Source of the DNA: Verrucomicrobiota bacterium
GTDB lineage: Bacteria > Verrucomicrobiota > Verrucomicrobiia > Limisphaerales > J093
NCBI GenBank assembly: GCA_016871715.1
Contig: VHCO01000005.1
Location: 1-64,000 of the forward strand
Length of the DNA stretch: 64,000 nt
Reading direction: 5' to 3'
Each line of letters starts with the position of its first letter. Position 1 is the stretch's first letter. A model generated the notes under the pieces. It was not told the origin of the DNA. It made no database searches and was given only the letters and a program-made list of their open reading frames with translations. This document shows, in pieces, positions 8,695 to 62,733 of the stretch. The position numbers and the translations under genes are program-made.

Positions 8695-8769
8695 TGGTGG
8701 GTTGGCAGGGACTCGAACCCTGGACCAACGGCTTAAAAGGCCGCTGCTCTACCACTGAGCTACCAACCC
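8695..8769 (-). tRNA. tRNA-Lys (anticodon TTT), CCA encoded
   Basis: Read on the minus strand it folds as a full cloverleaf. The acceptor arm is GGGTTGG/CCAACCC with discriminator A and an encoded CCA. The D-arm is GCTC...GAGC. The anticodon stem GCGGC/GCCGT encloses loop CTTTTAA (anticodon TTT, Lys). The T-arm is CAGGG-TTCGAGT-CCCTG. It lies between the broken kinase gene and the activase gene. Confidence 0.97.
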
Positions 8770-30068: not shown

Positions 30069-30842
30069 TCAGTCGACCCAGCCGCGCAGCTTGTACACCC
30101 ACCAGCCAATCTGCTCGTGGACGTAGTAATCTAACTCCCGGAGCCCGCCCAGTTGGGGAACCACGGCGAACTTCGGGTCGCTGCTCTCGAGCGCCGACAA
30201 CCCCTCGAAATCGCACGCGACAGGCGTCACGTTAACCCCCACAGCGCGGAAGACGGCTTCAGCCCGTTTCATGTGGAAGGCGGAGGTCACGAGGACGATG
30301 CGCTGCCAGCGCCGCTCCTCGATCAGGGCCTTCGTGCGCAGCGCTTCGTCGCGCGTGTTGCGGCAGTTGCCCAAGGTCAACAGGGTCGCGTTGGTGAAAC
30401 CCCAGCGGATCAACCAGTCCTTCACCAGGTCGCTCTCGGCCGGGCCAGGTCGGCCCGGCCGCGGTCCGCCCCCGCCCAGGATCACGGTCGAGGCCGTGCC
30501 GCGGCGAAGCAGTTCCATGACGGTCAGGGCGCGGTCGCTGGCATCGGCCACGTCGATGCCCAAGGGATCATGGCGCGAGGCACGGAGCTGCCCACCCAGC
30601 ATCACGATGGCATCGGCCCGCGGGAGACTCGCGACCTCGACACCCGCATAGGGGCGTTCCAAGCCGGCGAACAAGTACGCTGTCAGGGGGGTGGCGCCGA
30701 AGGCGTAGAGGAAGGCGGCCAGCAGGGCGGGGGCGATCGCGCGCCGCCACTCCCGACGCCACAGCCGCCAGCCGATCAACAGCAACAGCCCCACCCAGAA
30801 GACCCCCAGCAGATGGACGTGGCGCGCTATGGCATGAAACAT
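30069..30842 (-). CDS. YdcF/ElyC-type DUF218 membrane protein
   Basis: A 257-residue protein with two N-terminal membrane segments (about residues 10-27 and 35-55) and a DUF218 domain: 'ADAIVMLGGQL' with the Gly-rich turn, 'STVILGGGGPRPG', 'ESDLVKDWLIRWG', 'CRNTRDEALRTKALI' and 'IVLVTSAFHMKRAEAVFRAVG'. Family members act in envelope or peptidoglycan-precursor homeostasis (ElyC, SanA). It is convergent with the U32 gene and lies downstream of the epimerase gene on the same strand. Confidence 0.85.
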   Translation of the reverse strand: MFHAIARHVHLLGVFWVGLLLLIGWRLWRREWRRAIAPALLAAFLYAFGATPLTAYLFAGLERPYAGVEVASLPRADAIVMLGGQLRASRHDPLGIDVADASDRALTVMELLRRGTASTVILGGGGPRPGRPGPAESDLVKDWLIRWGFTNATLLTLGNCRNTRDEALRTKALIEERRWQRIVLVTSAFHMKRAEAVFRAVGVNVTPVACDFEGLSALESSDPKFAVVPQLGGLRELDYYVHEQIGWWVYKLRGWVD

Positions 30843-30885
30843 AGTGATGAGGCCTTGGGATAGACGACTGTTCCGGCGTCGCCCC

Positions 30886-31800
30886 TCAGGCTAAGGGCCG
30901 TAATTCGAGGGAGAAGGCCGCGCTAAACGTCTTCCCTGGCTCGAGCAGAATGAGCTCGTGGTCCTTCACCCGCGTGAAGGCGTTCGACAGCGCCGTCCAC
31001 GGCTCCAGACAATACGACGGCTCATCGACGGCCTTGGACCAGACGGCCAGGAATCGGTACGGCGCGGCGTTCTCCCAGTTCAGGGCCACCTCGAGTTCGC
31101 TGATTGGATCCACCAGCAGGGCCTCGCGCGGCTTGAGGTCGCCGAAGAACAGCGTCCCGGACACATCCTCCTGCACACTCCAGTTCTGGGCGGGGAACGG
31201 CTTGGCGCTGAAGTGCTCGCCGCGGCCATGCATGGTCAACCGCCGCGAATCCGGGATTGCCACAAAGCACTCCTCGCGCCGGCCTTTCGGGGTCAGCGGC
31301 AAGGGAAAGTACGGATGGAACCCCGTGCTGAACGGCAGCGATTCACTCGAGCGGTTCTCGATCTCCTGATCCCACAGCAGGCGCCCATCGAGGAGCCGGT
31401 ACGTAAGGCGGTGACTAAACGCGAACGGGTACTGACTGCGCGTATGGTCGCCGTCCGCCAGCTCCATGGTGAGGGAGGTGGGGGTCGCGTCCAACACCAT
31501 CCACTTCGAGCGCCGGGCGAAGCCGTGCTGGGGCATTTCGTAGCGTCGGCCCTGCCACTCGTAGTGGTGGTCCTTGTCCGGCAAATGGTTGAAGGAAACG
31601 AGCGGAAAGAGGATCGGGTTGCCCATGTGCATCTCGCGCGGGTAGCGCTCCACAATGGCTTGCGAATAATGGAGCGCATCCACCCAGCCTTGCCCCGGCA
31701 ATCGGCGCCGGTAGCGCAGAAGCCAACCCCCTAGCCCAGGCGCGATCCAGGCCTGCGCCTCGTCGCCTTCCTGCAACGTCACATATTCGCGGTCCAACAT
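30886..31800 (-). CDS. Aldose 1-epimerase family protein
   Basis: A 304-residue galactose-mutarotase-fold enzyme. Characteristic are 'MGNPILFPLVSFNHLPD', a first active-site His in 'MPQHGFARRSKW', 'FSTGFHPYFPLP' with the second His, and a C-terminal 'SYCLEPWTALSNAF' where the Glu would be the general base. It interconverts anomers of an aldose or hexose-6-phosphate; the exact sugar is unknown. A REPIN-like repeat lies 60 bp upstream of its start. Confidence 0.88.
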   Translation of the reverse strand: MLDREYVTLQEGDEAQAWIAPGLGGWLLRYRRRLPGQGWVDALHYSQAIVERYPREMHMGNPILFPLVSFNHLPDKDHHYEWQGRRYEMPQHGFARRSKWMVLDATPTSLTMELADGDHTRSQYPFAFSHRLTYRLLDGRLLWDQEIENRSSESLPFSTGFHPYFPLPLTPKGRREECFVAIPDSRRLTMHGRGEHFSAKPFPAQNWSVQEDVSGTLFFGDLKPREALLVDPISELEVALNWENAAPYRFLAVWSKAVDEPSYCLEPWTALSNAFTRVKDHELILLEPGKTFSAAFSLELRPLA

Positions 31801-31860
31801 CGTTCTTGCCTCTGCATCCGTTGCCGTCCATGCGACCGGCCAGCCGCATATTTCTCAGAT

Positions 31861-32008
31861 ACTCATGAGCCGCTGAGATGGACTCCATGCCGGCGGTAGG
31901 GCGCGCAGTTCTCTGCGCGCCGCGGCTTCTGTGCCCACAGCGGTCTGCGGCGCGCAGAGGACTGCGCGCCCTGCCGGCAACTTGGCGTCTATCCCGAGCT
32001 CTCATCAG
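31861..32008. repeat. ~150-bp REPIN/MITE-like element, copy 1
   Basis: Inverted arms at 31899-31925 and 31947-31971 (GCGCGCAG..CTGCGCGC cores). One end is ACTCATGAGC, the other CTCTCATCAGG. Copies at 37547-37694 and 40914-41061 lie in the opposite orientation. Nothing else is seen in the 31801-32128 gap. Confidence 0.8.
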
Positions 32009-32128
32009 GAACCCCGTCGCACGCCCGCGCGCCGGTTCGCCCCGCCGCTCAGCAGCGGGTCACTGAATCGAGGGCCACAGACTACGACTGAACGAACCGT
32101 ATGTCACGCCTGAACGGCCCTTCTGACC

Positions 32129-32166: not shown

Positions 32167-33315
32167 GTGAAGCCGACTATCTACCTAGATTACAACGCCA
32201 CGACCCCGCTCGATGGGCGCGTCCGCGAATTCATGGAGCCGTATCTCGGGGAGGTGTTTGGCAACCCGTCCAGCGTTCATCACCTCGGCCGCCGGGCGCG
32301 CATCGACTTGGACGCCGCCCGCGACCAGTTGGCTCAGTCTTGGCGCTGCCGCCCGAGCGAGGTCGTCTTCACCTCTGGAGGGACGGAAAGCAACAACCTT
32401 GCAGTCTTAGGCACGGCCCGGCGGCTGGCCAGTCGTGGGCGGCATCTGGTTGCCTCGGCGGTTGAACATCCCGCGGTCCTCGCGCCCTGCCATTACCTGG
32501 CTCGACATGAGGGTTTTGCCCTCACATTGGTCGGCGTGGACGCAGAGGGCCGGGTTGACCCCGGCGCGGTGGCCGCCGCGCTGCGGCCGGACACAATCCT
32601 GGTCTCGGTCATGGCAGCCAACAACGAGATCGGCACGCTCCAGCCCGTCTCGGACATTGGCGCGCTCTGCCGACAGCGCGGCGTCGCTTTCCACACAGAC
32701 GCGATCCAATGGTTTGGCAAAGAACCGTTTACACACATCGGGCAGTTCCAGGCCGACCTCGTCTCGGTGTGTGCTCACAAGTTCCATGGCCCGCGCGGGG
32801 CAGGCGCGCTCTTCATCCGCTCGCCCTTGCAGCCGGAAGCGCTGTCGCTCGGCGGAGGTCAGGAGCACGAACGGCGCGCTGGCACCGAGAATCTGGCGGC
32901 CATCGTGGGCTTGGTCGATGCCTTCTGCCGGTTTGTGCCGGAGCCTGTGTTCGAGTGCGACAAGCTGGAACCCCTGCGAGTGCGTCTAGAAGCAGCGGCG
33001 ATTTCCATCCCCGGGGTCCAAGTCCTTGGCCAGAATACCCCGCGGCTGGCGAACACACTGGCCTTGAGCATCGCCGGTTGCGACAGCCTGTCGGTCTTGG
33101 CCAACCTGGATCTCGAGGGGATCTGTGCCTCAAGCGGCTCGGCCTGCTCGAGTGGCGCCCTGGAACCGTCCCATGTCCTGCTCGCGTTGGGATTGGATGC
33201 CGCTACGGCCCAATCTCTGGTGCGGTTTTCGCTGGGCCGGGGCTCGAACCAGGAGGAAATCGAGCTGGTAGGCCAGCTCTTGCCCGAACTCATTGAGCGC
33301 GCTCGAGGCACTTGA
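32167..33315 (+). CDS. Cysteine desulfurase (NifS/IscS family)
   Basis: A 382-residue PLP enzyme releasing sulfur from cysteine for Fe-S clusters and thiolated RNA. It starts at GTG 32167 ('MKPTIYLDYNATTPLD', the family opening). Further marks are 'FTSGGTESNNLAVLG', 'MAANNEIGTLQPV', 'FHTDAIQWFG' (PLP Asp region), the Schiff-base Lys in 'SVCAHKFHGPRGAGALF', and the persulfide Cys in 'CASSGSACSSGALEPSHV'. The motif fits the shorter-loop NifS/group II-like pattern with SSGSACSSG. No isc/suf partner genes are adjacent. Confidence 0.93.
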   Translation: MKPTIYLDYNATTPLDGRVREFMEPYLGEVFGNPSSVHHLGRRARIDLDAARDQLAQSWRCRPSEVVFTSGGTESNNLAVLGTARRLASRGRHLVASAVEHPAVLAPCHYLARHEGFALTLVGVDAEGRVDPGAVAAALRPDTILVSVMAANNEIGTLQPVSDIGALCRQRGVAFHTDAIQWFGKEPFTHIGQFQADLVSVCAHKFHGPRGAGALFIRSPLQPEALSLGGGQEHERRAGTENLAAIVGLVDAFCRFVPEPVFECDKLEPLRVRLEAAAISIPGVQVLGQNTPRLANTLALSIAGCDSLSVLANLDLEGICASSGSACSSGALEPSHVLLALGLDAATAQSLVRFSLGRGSNQEEIELVGQLLPELIERARGT

Positions 33316-33559: not shown

Positions 33560-34669
33560 ATGAAACTCACCATCGCCCGAGAGCAGATCATTCTCGGTCT
33601 CCAGGCCGTGCAGAATGTCGTGGGTACGCGCACCACCCTGCCGATCCTCTCCAACGTGCTGCTGCGTGCTGACGAAGGAGGGCTCGGGTTGACCGCAACC
33701 GACTTGGATGTGACCATCGCGTGCGTCGTCGAGGCGCAAGTGGGCAAGCGCGGAGCCACCACACTCCCGGCCAAACGCTTGTTCAGCATCGTCCGCGAGT
33801 TGGCCACGCCGGAAATCGAAATCGAGGTCGATGAGCGCAACCTCTGTACTTTGCAGTCGGGCGGCTCCTTCTTCCGTATCCACGGGTTGGCAGCGGACGA
33901 TTTCCCGCCGGTGCCCGAGTTGGGCGAACGCAAGAAAGTCGTGGTGCCGCAGGCGAAGTTGAAGGGGATGCTGCGGCGGACGGCCTTTGCCGCCTCGACC
34001 GATGAGACGCGCTACGTGTTGAACGGCCTCTTGTTCAGCCTCAAAGAGCACAAGATCACCATGGTGGCCACTGACGGGCGGCGCCTGGCGTTGACGGACG
34101 AAGAAGTGGATGTGGACCCGGAAAACCAGGCGGAGTACATCGTCCCGACCAAGGCGATCAATGAGCTCAACCGCCTCCTGGTGGGGGATGGGGAGGTCGA
34201 GCTGGTCTCGACCGAGAACCAGGTTGCCTTTACGTTGCGCGATCCCAAGGGCTTCACCGTCTTGGTCTGGTCGAAACTGGTGGACGGGACCTATCCAAAT
34301 TACCGGCAGGTCATCCCGAGCGAATCGCGGGAGCGGGTCAGCCTGCCACGCGAGGAGCTGCTCCAGGCGCTGCGCCGGGCCGAGATCATGACCAGTGACA
34401 AGTCCAACTCCGTCAAGCTGGCGTTCTCGAAAAACAACCTCTCCATCACGGCCAATACGCCGGATGTGGGCGAGGCACGGGAGAGCCTGGCCGTCAACTA
34501 CCGAGGAGTCGAACTGAGCATCGCCTTTAACCCGAGCTTCTTCCTCGAGGCCCTCAAGGCCTTGGACGACGACGAGGTCTTCCTCGAACTAACGGACGAG
34601 CTCAGCCCGGGCGTCGTCAAGACCAACGGGCCGTTCCTCTACGTCATCATGCCGATGCGCATGAACTAG
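33560..34669 (+). CDS. dnaN: DNA polymerase III beta subunit (sliding clamp)
   Basis: A 369-residue clamp, normal length. It starts 'MKLTIAREQIILGLQAVQNVVGTRTTLPILSNVLL' in overall pattern, with the three-domain layout typical of DnaN: 'GLTATDLDVTIACVV', 'RLFSIVRELATPEIEIEV', 'GGSFFRIHGLAADDFPPVP', 'LNGLLFSLKEHKITMVATDGRRLAL', and the C-terminal 'VIMPMRMN' tail. It encircles DNA and tethers polymerases. dnaA is not adjacent. The gene converges on atpG: both stop codons lie in the four bases 34666-34669 (CTAG), so no intergenic terminator exists. Confidence 0.97.
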   Translation: MKLTIAREQIILGLQAVQNVVGTRTTLPILSNVLLRADEGGLGLTATDLDVTIACVVEAQVGKRGATTLPAKRLFSIVRELATPEIEIEVDERNLCTLQSGGSFFRIHGLAADDFPPVPELGERKKVVVPQAKLKGMLRRTAFAASTDETRYVLNGLLFSLKEHKITMVATDGRRLALTDEEVDVDPENQAEYIVPTKAINELNRLLVGDGEVELVSTENQVAFTLRDPKGFTVLVWSKLVDGTYPNYRQVIPSESRERVSLPREELLQALRRAEIMTSDKSNSVKLAFSKNNLSITANTPDVGEARESLAVNYRGVELSIAFNPSFFLEALKALDDDEVFLELTDELSPGVVKTNGPFLYVIMPMRMN

Positions 34670-35544
34670 CCCATCGCCATTGCCGCCGTCGAGATTTCCA
34701 GCAGTTCGTTGGTGATCATCGACTGGCGCAGCTTGTTGTAGTCTAGGGTCAGATCCTTGATCAACTGCTGGGCATTGTCGGTGGCGTTCTTCATCGCCAC
34801 CATCCGGGCGCTGTGCTCGCTCGCTTTGGCCTCGAGCAAGACCTGGTAGACCCGGAAGTTGAGGTAGTGCGGCAACAGCGCTCCCAACACCGCCTCCGCG
34901 CCCGGCTCGAACAGAAACTCCGCGGCGCCCTTGGTCAGCGCGCCGTGGATCTCGTCCCCGCCGACATCGGTGCTGACCGCCGCGATCTCTCCCACGGGCA
35001 GGAACGACAAAGTCTGCGGCCGCTGCGTCAAGGTCGAGATGAAGTTGGTGAAGAGCAGGTCGACACCGGCCACCTGTTCGTTGAGGAACAAATCGCACGC
35101 GAACCGCGAGATGGCGCGTGCCTCGGCGTAAAGGGGAGTGTCCTTGTAAGTGAACTCAGCCGCCAGCTCGCGTTTGGTGCGGGCAACGAACTGGGCCGCC
35201 TTCCGCCCCGCCGTGATGAAGACCGTGGATTGGCGGTCGCACTGGGCCACTTCGCGCATGAGATTGGCATTGAGGGCGCCGCACAACCCCTTGTCCGAGC
35301 TGATCACGATCACCGCCCGCCGAGCGCCCTCTCGCTGCTCCATGAGCGGGTGGCTGAAATCCCCCACATGGTGCGTCACCTCGGCCAGGACCGAGTTCAT
35401 CAAAGCTGCGTACGGCCGGCCCGCCAGCGCGGCCTCCTGTGCCTTGCGCATCTTCGAGGCCGCCACCATCTGCATGGCCTTGGTGATCTGGGCCGTGTTC
35501 TTGACCGACCGGATCCGGCGTCGAATGTCGCGCGTGCTGGGCAT
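34666..35544 (-). CDS. atpG: F1F0 ATP synthase gamma subunit
   Basis: A 292-residue central-stalk subunit. The N-terminus 'STRDIRRRIRSVKNTAQITKAMQMVAASKM' is diagnostic, with 'SSDKGLCGALNANL' in the middle. The C-terminal helix has 'ARMVAMKNATDNAQQLIKDLTLDYNKLRQ'. It rotates inside the alpha3beta3 head. It is the last gene of the atp run here; atpD and atpC, which normally follow, are absent. Confidence 0.96.
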   Translation of the reverse strand: MPSTRDIRRRIRSVKNTAQITKAMQMVAASKMRKAQEAALAGRPYAALMNSVLAEVTHHVGDFSHPLMEQREGARRAVIVISSDKGLCGALNANLMREVAQCDRQSTVFITAGRKAAQFVARTKRELAAEFTYKDTPLYAEARAISRFACDLFLNEQVAGVDLLFTNFISTLTQRPQTLSFLPVGEIAAVSTDVGGDEIHGALTKGAAEFLFEPGAEAVLGALLPHYLNFRVYQVLLEAKASEHSARMVAMKNATDNAQQLIKDLTLDYNKLRQSMITNELLEISTAAMAMG

Positions 35545-35570: not shown

Positions 35571-37103
35571 CTAGCGGTAGGTCTGCTTGAACTCGGTCAA
35601 CGCCCCCTTCAACTCCGCGCTCAGGGCATCGTCCAGGGTCTTCTTGGCCTGGATCTGCTGCAATAAGGCCTCCTTCCGGCTCGCCAGGTAATCGGTGAGT
35701 TTGGCCTGGAAATCCTTGACCTTGTCCACCGCCACCTCGTCCAGGAAGCCGTTCTGCGCCCCCCACAGGACTGCCACCTGCACCTCGACCGGGATCGGGC
35801 TGTACTGCGATTGCTTGAACACCTCCACGATCCGTTTGCCGCGCTCCAGTTGCGCTTGCGTCTTGGCGTCCAGGTCCGAACCGAACTGCGCAAAGGCCGC
35901 TAACTCGCGAAACTGCGCTAACTCGAGCTTGATGCGGCCAGCCACCTGTTTCATCGCCTTCACCTGGGCGGCCGAACCCACCCGCGACACCGAGATGCCG
36001 ACCGAAATGGCCGGCCGAATGCCCTGGTAGAAAAGGTCCGTCTCGAGGAAGATCTGGCCGTCGGTGATCGAGATGACATTGGTGGGGATGTAGGCCGAGA
36101 CGTCGCCGGCCTGCGTCTCGATGATCGGCAGCGCGGTCAACGAGCCGTTCCCGTTCTTCTCGTTCAGCCGCGCCGCCCGCTCCAGCAGACGGCTGTGCAG
36201 GTAAAAGACATCCCCGGGGTACGCCTCGCGGCCCGATGGGCGCTTGAGCACAAGCGACACCTGCCGGTAAGCCACCGCGTGTTTCGACAGATCGTCATAG
36301 ATGATCAACGCATCCATGGCGTTGTCCATGAACCATTCCCCCATCGCGCAACCCGCAAAAGGCGCTAGGTACTGATTCGTGGCTGAGTCCGACGCCGCCG
36401 CCACCACGATGATCGTGTAGGGCATGGCCCCTTCGTCCTCGAGCACCTTGATGACGCGCGCGATGTTCGACTGCTTCTGCCCCACCGCGACGTAAATCGA
36501 GTAGAGCGGCCGGTACTCTGGGTCCCCAGCCGCCTCGGCCGCCTTGTTCAGCCGCGCGTTGTTGATGATGGTATCGACGCCCAGCGTGGTCTTGCCCGTC
36601 GACCGATCCCCAATGATCAGCTCGCGCTGGCCGCGCCCGATCGGAATCATGGCGTCGATGGCCATAATGCCCGTTTGGACCGGCTGGCTGACCGAACGGC
36701 GCTTGATGATGCCCGGCGCAATCTTCTCGACCGGGTAGAACGTCTGGGTGTCCACCGGGCCCTTCCCGTCCAGCGGCCGGCCTAAGGCGTCCACCACCCG
36801 CCCCAAGAGCGCCTTACCCGCGGGCACCTGCAACAGGCGCCCCGTGGTCCGCACCTCCTGCCCCTCCCGGACGCTGAGGTAGTCCCCGAGAATAATCGCC
36901 CCCACCTCCGTCTCCTCGAGGTTCAAGGCCAAACCCACCACGCCGTCGCCGAAATCGAGCATCTCGTTCAACATCGCGTCGGTCAGCCCCTCGATCTTGG
37001 CCACGCCATCGCCGATCTCGCGGACGATGCCGACATTCTCCTTGCGCACACCGGCCTTCACACCGGCGATTTGCGCTTCGATCTCTTGCAGTAACGTGCT
37101 CAT
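35571..37103 (-). CDS. atpA: F1F0 ATP synthase alpha subunit
   Basis: A 510-residue, full-length non-catalytic nucleotide-binding subunit. P-loop '[15 protein letters not shown]', the region '[20 protein letters not shown]', '[21 protein letters not shown]', and the signature '[17 protein letters not shown]' near residue 370. N-terminal '[26 protein letters not shown]' is the beta-barrel. It sits 36 bp downstream of atpH and 26 bp before atpG, all on the minus strand. Confidence 0.97.
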
Positions 37104-37139: not shown

Positions 37140-37532
37140 TCAAAAGCTCTCTTTAAGTCGAGCTAGCCGGGACTGGATGCTGCCGTCGTAGACATCGCTG
37201 CCCACGCGGACCCGCAGACCGCCCAGCAAAGCCGTGTTCTCGGCAAACGCCACCTCCAAACCCGCCCCGTAAAGGCGCCCCAAACGCGCCTGAACCTCCG
37301 TGCGCTGCGCCTCCGTCAACCGCACCGCGCTCTCGATCCGCGCAGCCCGCCGCTGAACGTCCAGCTTCACCAAGCGCTGGAAGTGCGTCAGGATCGCCAC
37401 GTGCCCGCGCGGGTGTTGGGCGATCACTTGCGCCACCGCCTGGCGGACCCGGCCGGCCTCGAGCAGGCCAGCCACTTGGCAGGCGCGGAACAAGGCCTTG
37501 GCTTCGCGGCGGGCCTGTTTCGAGATTCTCAT
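37140..37532 (-). CDS. atpH: F1F0 ATP synthase delta subunit (short form)
   Basis: A 130-residue OSCP/delta-like protein, versus about 180 usual. It keeps the C-terminal features: 'HFQRLVKLDVQRRAARIESA' and 'LLGGLRVRVGSDVYDGSIQSRLARLKESF', the delta tail that binds subunit b. The N-terminal helical bundle that contacts alpha is reduced to about 40 residues. The shortened form could be lineage-specific or could reflect loss of the start when a repeat entered the gap upstream (37547-37694). Position between atpF and atpA supports the call. Confidence 0.88.
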   Translation of the reverse strand: MRISKQARREAKALFRACQVAGLLEAGRVRQAVAQVIAQHPRGHVAILTHFQRLVKLDVQRRAARIESAVRLTEAQRTEVQARLGRLYGAGLEVAFAENTALLGGLRVRVGSDVYDGSIQSRLARLKESF

Positions 37533-37546
37533 GGGCAGGACGATAC

Positions 37547-37694
37547 GGATGAGAGCCAGGGATCGACTGCAGCTCGCTGGTGGGACGCGCAGTCCCCTGC
37601 GCCCCGCAAACCGCTCGGGACACAGGAGGTCGCGGCGCGCAGAGGACGGCGCGCCCGACCGCCGACATCTAGTCCGTCTCGGTGACTCATGAGT
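37547..37694. repeat. ~150-bp REPIN/MITE-like element, copy 2, inside the atp operon
   Basis: It lies between atpF and atpH. Inverted cores GACGCGCAGTCCCCTGCGCC (37583-37602) and GGCGCGCAGAGGACGGCGCGC (37634-37654). The ends are GGATGAGAGCCAGGGAT and CTCGGTGACTCATGAGT, matching copies 1 and 3. Confidence 0.8.
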
Positions 37695-37720
37695 AACGTT
37701 CGCACTGGGCCCCGGGCCCT

Positions 37721-38248
37721 CTAGGCGGCCAATTCGCGGTTCGTCTCTTCGATCAAGCGTTGGTGATCGTCCACGGTGAGGATCTTCCCGGTAACCTTGG
37801 CCGTGGTTTCCACCACCAGGCGGCCCACCTCGCGTCGGAGCTCGAGCTTCATCCGCGCCAGCTCCGCCTCGCTCGCCTCGCTCGCCTTGGCGATGATCTC
37901 GTTCGCGGCCGCCACGGCCTTTTGCGTCTCCTGCTCGAGGACACGCGCGGCCGCCGCGCGCGCCTCTTCGATCAACTTGTTGGCCTGGGCATTCGCCTGG
38001 TTCAGCGCCTCCTGTCGCGCCGCCTCCGTCCGCGCCAGCTCCGCCTGGATCTGAGCTGCCTTGTCCAGACTCTCCTGGATCCGCTGTCGGCGCTCCGCCA
38101 GCACCAGCAGGATCGGCTTATAGGCGAACCGGTGCAGCAAGAAGGCTACAATGCTGAAGCTGACGATCTGAGCGATCAGGTGCGGCCAATCGACCCCAAA
38201 GTCGAGCGCCGTGTCGCTGATCATGTTCGCGAACAGGACGTGCTGCAT
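37721..38248 (-). CDS. atpF: F1F0 ATP synthase b subunit
   Basis: A 175-residue peripheral-stalk subunit: one N-terminal membrane helix (about residues 20-40, 'LIAQIVSFSIVAFLLHRFAY' region) and then a long charged coiled coil ('RQRIQESLDKAAQIQAELARTEAARQEA'). It ends 'DDHQRLIEETNRELAA'. It links subunit a to delta and the F1 head. Only one b-type gene is seen (no b'). The distance to atpH (188 bp) is unusually long for this operon because of the repeat. Confidence 0.94.
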   Translation of the reverse strand: MQHVLFANMISDTALDFGVDWPHLIAQIVSFSIVAFLLHRFAYKPILLVLAERRQRIQESLDKAAQIQAELARTEAARQEALNQANAQANKLIEEARAAAARVLEQETQKAVAAANEIIAKASEASEAELARMKLELRREVGRLVVETTAKVTGKILTVDDHQRLIEETNRELAA

Positions 38249-40913: not shown

Positions 40914-41061
40914 GATGCACTGCACAGAACAGTCCGATGGTGGGGCGCGCAGTCCTCTGCGCGCCGCAAACCGATGTGGGCACTGGAGGCCGAGGCGGGC
41001 AGAGCGCAGAGGACTGCGCGCCCTGCTGCCGACATCTCGTCCATCTCGGTGACTCATGAGT
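40914..41061. repeat. ~150-bp REPIN/MITE-like element, copy 3
   Basis: Inverted cores GGGCGCGCAGTCCTCTGCGC (40943-40962) and GCGCAGAGGACTGCGCGCCC (41004-41023). The right end ATCTCGGTGACTCATGAGT (41043-41061) matches copy 2. The left end is less conserved. Confidence 0.78.
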
Positions 41062-62445: not shown

Positions 62446-62733
62446 GAGCGCGGCCATCTTGGCCGCGAGGTAGCGGGTGAGACGCCCGCTCTCCGTTGGG
62501 GAGAGGGAGCGCGGCCATCTTGGCCGCGAGGTAGCGGGCGAGACGCCCGCTCTCCGTCGGGGAGAGGGAGCGCGGCCATCTTGGCCGCGAGGTAGCGGGC
62601 GAGACGCCCGCTCTCCGTTGGGGAAAGGGAGCGCGGCTATGTTGGCCGCGAGGTAGCGGGCGAGACGCCCGCTCTCCGTTGGGGAAAGGGAGCGCGGCTA
62701 TGTTGGCCGCGAGGTAGCGGGCGAGACGCCCGC
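62446..62733. repeat. 61-bp tandem repeat, about 4.7 copies
   Basis: Units start at 62446, 62507, 62568, 62629 and 62690 (last partial). Each unit holds two palindromes: CGCGGC-CATCTT-GGCCGCG type and AGCGGG-CGAGACG-CCCGCT type. Copies differ at only a few bases. It lies upstream of the giant gene; the 62211-62445 stretch holds nothing else recognisable. Confidence 0.92.

Follow-up and report, generated by a model that had tools for sequence, protein, structure and literature searches.

A GTAG-tagged REPIN nested in inverted arms with TA ends lies between atpF and atpH in a Limisphaerales genome

Several families of MITEs with TA targets are linked to IS630, among them Nezha in cyanobacteria, RUP in pneumococcus and Correia/NEMIS in Neisseria. 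These elements measure ∼100–160 bp, have inverted ends with TA on both sides, lie between genes and are transcribed as hairpins, all of which are features common to the element described here; unlike them, it has a REPIN at its centre, its ends are unrelated to theirs as far as known, and no partner IS was found. REPINs (Bertels and Rainey, 2011; PMC3116915) and the GTAG REPs that are numerous in the verrucomicrobium Opitutus terrae (Di Nocera et al., 2013; PMC3733652) resemble it in their inverted GTAG palindromes, conserved spacer and hundreds of mostly intergenic copies. Compared with REPINs, however, the inserted unit is larger here (152 bp), with arms outside the tags and no cognate RAYT found, and its two REPs are ∼28 bp apart, whereas the head-to-head GTAG-17 dimers of O. 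terrae have spacers of 1–2 bp. The same survey described REP dimers enclosed in long palindromes, of the GTAG-15 type in Anabaena variabilis and of the CGTC-1 type in Halothiobacillus neapolitanus (PMC3733652). In both, as here, a head-to-head REP dimer is nested in a long conserved palindrome, and in A. variabilis TA likewise closes the arms (TATAGGA...TCCTATA). In these known cases the palindrome is not found without its dimer, whereas remnant single arms occur here; moreover, the arm and core sequences of the present element are unrelated to theirs, its arms are imperfect and its host belongs to another phylum. REP dimers inside palindromic arms are known already, and the present element adds to that kind.

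The window analysed here is a stretch of 64,000 nt (positions 1 to 64,000 of contig VHCO01000005.1, assembly GCA_016871715.1) from a Verrucomicrobiota bacterium of the order Limisphaerales. A preliminary description, made from the letters of this DNA, had proposed a dispersed REPIN/MITE-like element inside the ATP synthase operon, with three copies in the window. A search using an nhmmer profile built from 22 full-length copies bore out three related copies at these three loci, but not their exact limits: the start given for the operon copy lay 3 bp inside the real end. After refinement this copy spans 152 bp, from TA to TA, with a full-length profile match (1–152, 137.9 bits). The features of the locus are as follows.

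34666..35544, minus strand: atpG, downstream in the operon (Pfam)
35571..37103, minus strand: atpA, downstream in the operon
37140..37532, minus strand: atpH, delta subunit of 130 aa, intact downstream neighbour (Pfam OSCP; same length in relatives)
37544..37695, minus strand: composite element, 152 bp, TA...TA, in the atpF/atpH gap (nhmmer match, end motifs, empty site in relatives)
37544..37579, plus strand: outer arm type B, TACGGATGAGAGCCAGGGATCGAC..., with terminal TA
37580..37606, plus strand: first REP of the REPIN core, GTGG replacing the GTAG tag, GGACGCGCAGTCCCCTGCGCCCC
37633..37659, minus strand: second, inverted REP, GTCG replacing the GTAG tag, GGCGCGCCGTCCTCTGCGCGCCG
37660..37695, minus strand: outer arm type A, TACTCATGAGTCACCGAGACGGAC..., with terminal TA
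37721..38248, minus strand: atpF, b subunit, upstream neighbour (Pfam ATP-synt_B)
31860..32009, plus strand: second copy, 150 bp, between the divergent genes 30886-31800 (minus) and 32167-33315 (plus) (profile)
40928..41061, minus strand: third copy, 134 bp matched, low-coordinate end degenerate (profile)

The strict end motif is present at both sides of the operon copy. Terminal ATCTCGGTGACTCATGAGT ends, which had been ascribed to all three copies, occur in one type of arm (at the right of copies 2 and 3) and not in the other arm, which is related but different (TACTGATGAGAG..CGGGATAGAC). A lone outer arm without REPIN also occurs at 30842-30875, directly before the gene 30069-30842 (minus strand), and lone arms are found elsewhere as well.

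The family consensus, TACTCATGAGTCACTGAGATGGACTACAAGTCGGC - GGTAGGGCGCGCAGTCCTCTGCGCGCC - spacer - GGCGCGCAGAGGACTGCGCGCCCTACC - ...CTCTCATCAGTA, is a nested palindrome in which a REPIN of ∼82 bp, made of two inverted GTAG-tagged REPs set head to head, lies within inverted arms of ∼35 bp. The two outer arms are related to each other and inverted (TACTCATGAGTCACTGAGAT.. and TACTGATGAGAGCTCGGGAT..), with imperfect complementarity; they end in TACTSATGAG, with TA at both ends of the element, and beyond these TA the similarity stops, the flanks of different copies being unrelated. A GTAG tag stands beside each palindrome of the consensus (GGTAGGGCGCGCAG...CTGCGCGCCCTACC), and inverted core pairs spaced ∼50 bp start to start recur across the genome, which is the architecture of a REPIN, while the length of 152 bp, the ∼35-bp arms and the lack of any gene inside are those of a MITE. 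Both halves of the proposed name are apt, since MITE-like arms enclose a GTAG REPIN core.

The family is abundant, well in excess of chance. Across the 554 contigs of the draft genome (8.58 Mb), 294 sites carry the core palindrome GGCGCGCAGNNNNCTGCGCGCC, as against none for the reversed control, and 59+64 sites carry the end motif, again versus none. An unbiased sample of 1.26 Mb, made up of the window and of contigs picked by size, contains 54 places with a profile match, or ∼43 per Mb, from which we estimate ∼370 copies per genome. A larger sample of 2.45 Mb, read in stretches of which some were chosen by end hits and which is hence partly biased, yielded 110 places. Both arms are present at 54 of them, a single arm at 37 and no arm at 19; TA is found at both ends in half of the two-armed copies (27 of 54). 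Copies are intergenic in 103 of the 110 cases, compared with 17% of non-coding sequence under a crude gene model (83% coding). Gaps between co-directional genes hold 66% of the placed copies versus 61% expected from their length (p 0.44), and the orientation of copies is unbiased (13:18), so that the family avoids genes without showing a preference for operons. Tandem arrays of ∼100-bp units with the REPIN core were also seen at contig starts (L101:14-754 on contig C15, L093:25-325 on contig C12).

The element separates atpF from atpH, as had been stated; 25 nt lie between the atpF stop and the element, and 11 nt between the element and the atpH start, both flanking genes being intact. AtpA led to 58 related genomes, and the comparison drew on the 29 best readable operons among them. 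The atpF–atpH gap measures 188 bp here versus −4 to 50 bp in almost all of 28 readable relatives, L140 and L146 giving odd values (frameshift-like or an extended ORF call) and one further locus being without atpF. When the flanks are joined through a single TA, with 150 bp removed, they align straight over the junction with seven relatives at 65–71% identity, leaving an inferred pre-insertion spacer of 38 bp; the ancestral TA itself is not visible in these diverged relatives. The long gap and the alignment of the joined spacer together identify a lineage-specific insertion, in which arms and core entered the site as one block. A single copy fixed in all relatives, which had been named among the findings that would refute the proposal, was absent, copies being many and the site empty in relatives. 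Empty sites for other copies were sought inside repeats of the same genome, where none spanned the junction; the operon site, through the relatives, is the only one.

AtpH had been called unusually short and its shortness brought into connection with the insertion. It is short by comparison with textbook delta subunits, but not as a local oddity: its length is 130 aa in almost every readable relative, with 131–133 aa in a few and longer ORF calls in two, and none of them carries the insertion, which refutes the connection. Since relatives without the element share this length, we regard the shortness as an order-wide trait and not as damage by the element. The OSCP match of AtpH begins at profile position 87 of 172, only the C-terminal part being matched, and across 37140-37532 and the corresponding loci of relatives (L122-L150) the N-terminal domain of AtpH that caps F1 seems mostly reduced throughout the order. 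The short AtpH is thereby removed as a false lead for the insertion, and as an order-wide trait it merits a study of its own. As for the layout of the operon, the gene next after atpG is a convergent dnaN (33560-34669), in place of atpD-atpC; the gene for the beta subunit apparently lies at G000:C90, while many relatives have it ∼1 kb downstream of atpA.

A strong hairpin in the operon mRNA had been predicted, and the computed fold backs it: the folding energy of the 188-nt spacer transcript is −95.1 kcal/mol, versus −83.7 ± 4.4 for shuffled sequences (z −2.58), a value equalled by 1 of 200 shuffles. It had further been proposed that this hairpin could stabilise the message upstream of it, which would here be atpBEF, or attenuate atpHAG, altering the subunit ratio; the two effects could also act together. 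Apart from the fold, such a role would draw on the lengthening of the spacer from ∼38 to 188 nt, with no Shine-Dalgarno-like motif visible before atpH here or in aligned relatives, so that translational coupling between atpF and atpH could weaken, and on a weak lean of the family toward the stop of the upstream gene (35:21, p 0.08). Yet we found no T-run intrinsic terminator in 37400-37800 and no sigma-70-like promoter in the atpF–atpH spacer; co-directional gaps are not enriched in copies, orientation is unbiased, most relatives do without the element, and the operon copy has drifted at its REP pairs without compensation, for instance in its second REP, where an A has changed to C opposite T. 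With neither terminator nor promoter, and with no bias toward operons or in orientation, a passenger is likelier than an effect on expression, and a functional part in the operon seems to us quite unlikely. Selection for the hairpin through compensatory change was rejected as weak, such change being slight (2 of 23 pairs, covariation term 0.41). A known structured RNA was rejected as the identity of the repeat, the tRNA at 8698-8769 being the only Rfam match at gathering score in the window. Both GTAG tags of the operon copy are mutated (GTGG, GTCG), and it retains ∼85% identity to the consensus; together with the uncompensated stem change, this makes an ageing passenger the simplest reading, although the copy may have a modest effect on mRNA decay or on atpF–atpH coupling.

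We consider the repeat in the ATP synthase operon to be, probably though not certainly, a high-copy non-coding composite mobile element that inserted whole at a TA and is now likely a passenger. A 150-bp unit, with its GTAG-tagged REPIN in inverted arms with TA ends, would have entered a TA of the ∼38-bp atpF–atpH spacer, the TA being duplicated on insertion, or else the TA could be part of the element rather than a duplicated target. From the TA ends and inverted arms we infer cut-and-paste movement by a DDE-type transposase that would read the TACTSATGAG ends and prefer TA targets, whereas the inner REPIN would go back to an older family, spread throughout the order and generated by a RAYT. 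The operon copy would now be ageing and tolerated, transcribed with the operon as a hairpin whose influence on translation or mRNA decay would be modest at best. It is unlikely, in our judgement, that the whole unit moved instead as single-stranded DNA by means of a RAYT or another Y1 (HUH) transposase, the TA then being part of the arm: a GTAG tag with an inverted REP dimer is indeed a typical RAYT substrate, and the genome has several Y1 genes, one of which, on contig C97, has a remnant arm ∼0.7 kb away, but the known target of RAYTs is the GTAG hairpin, outside of which the arms lie, the RAYT-like gene on C97 has arrays of another REP as its own flanks, and inverted arms with TA at both ends better match cut-and-paste elements. 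Far less probable still is an ordinary REPIN whose arms are merely flanks shared from an old duplication. Bare cores exist, at 19 of the 110 places, but both arms recur at 54, the sequence past the TA is unrelated, and the empty operon site, where arms and core make up one block, contradicts it.

Candidate partners of the composite element were sought among the transposases of the genome. IS630/DDE_3 was rejected, as the genome has one IS630-type gene and the contig stretch around it shows no matching ends, and no autonomous element, in the form of paired arms 0–3 kb apart without the core, was present in 2.45 Mb. Y1 transposases were rejected as flanking partners, the sampled flanks of 30 Y1 loci being without the element except for the remnant arm near the gene on C97. 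The best Y1 gene scored 77.1 bits with the RAYT model (cut-off 80), and no RAYT-like gene flanked by the core REP was found in this genome (554-contig assembly) or in nine relatives; one relative (G049) has a REP-like pair near one Y1 gene, but with a different stem. The window contains, at 62446-62733, a 61-bp tandem array with another GTAG-REP-like palindrome (GGTAGCGGGCGAGACGCCCGCT), and 66-bp arrays akin to it flank the RAYT-like gene on C97 (L034, G000:C97). The genome also has a Y1-transposase-like family of ∼400 aa with ∼45 copies, many at contig ends (L036, L046, L048, L049, L055, L057 and others). In the copies compared, the similarity of ∼87% is limited to the ORF, and most of these have a TTGACA motif ∼35–70 nt ahead of the ATG, although their flanks are otherwise unrelated.

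Core and arms differ in their distribution. Searched with the 152-bp query, 96 related genomes match only over positions ∼28–122, mostly 36–117, which correspond to the REPIN core; the outer arms gave no match in these genomes and are confined to their own, and a 24-nt arm motif had no exact match in 84,980 species genomes (own genome excluded). The exact core REP is found, among the matches listed, in many genomes of Verrucomicrobia subdivision 3 / Limisphaerales, a distribution that by itself would assign the genome of the window to this order. Judged by these sequence comparisons, the core is common to the order Limisphaerales and the arms are private to one lineage. In the relative G041 (L249-L256), sampled by core only, the same core type lies within unrelated arms, (C)AGCNGTTCTCATTTTG, at 13 of 13 flanks, and in DBS2-1.bin101 (L293-L314) it lies within arms of yet another kind, TAGCCCGAATATTTCA; no shared arms were seen around the cores of G049. 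Of the leads, the most interesting is this recurrence of one core type in unrelated arms elsewhere in the order. Together with the TACTSATGAG arms of the present genome, these make at least three arm sets, and we tentatively raise the possibility, itself doubtful, that in the Limisphaerales GTAG REPINs take up unrelated outer arms time and again and then spread as larger composite transposons.

The placement in the ATP synthase operon is ordinary for a family of several hundred copies, and its location appears to be neutral. More useful is the nested design, with an order-wide core, lineage-private arms and relatives that have the same core type in other arms. It offers a comparative system for how REPINs, usually thought to be moved by RAYTs only, spread without an evident partner. 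If the repeated acquisition of arms is true, these elements would be a two-layer parasite, in which hairpins made by RAYTs are mobilised again by other transposases.
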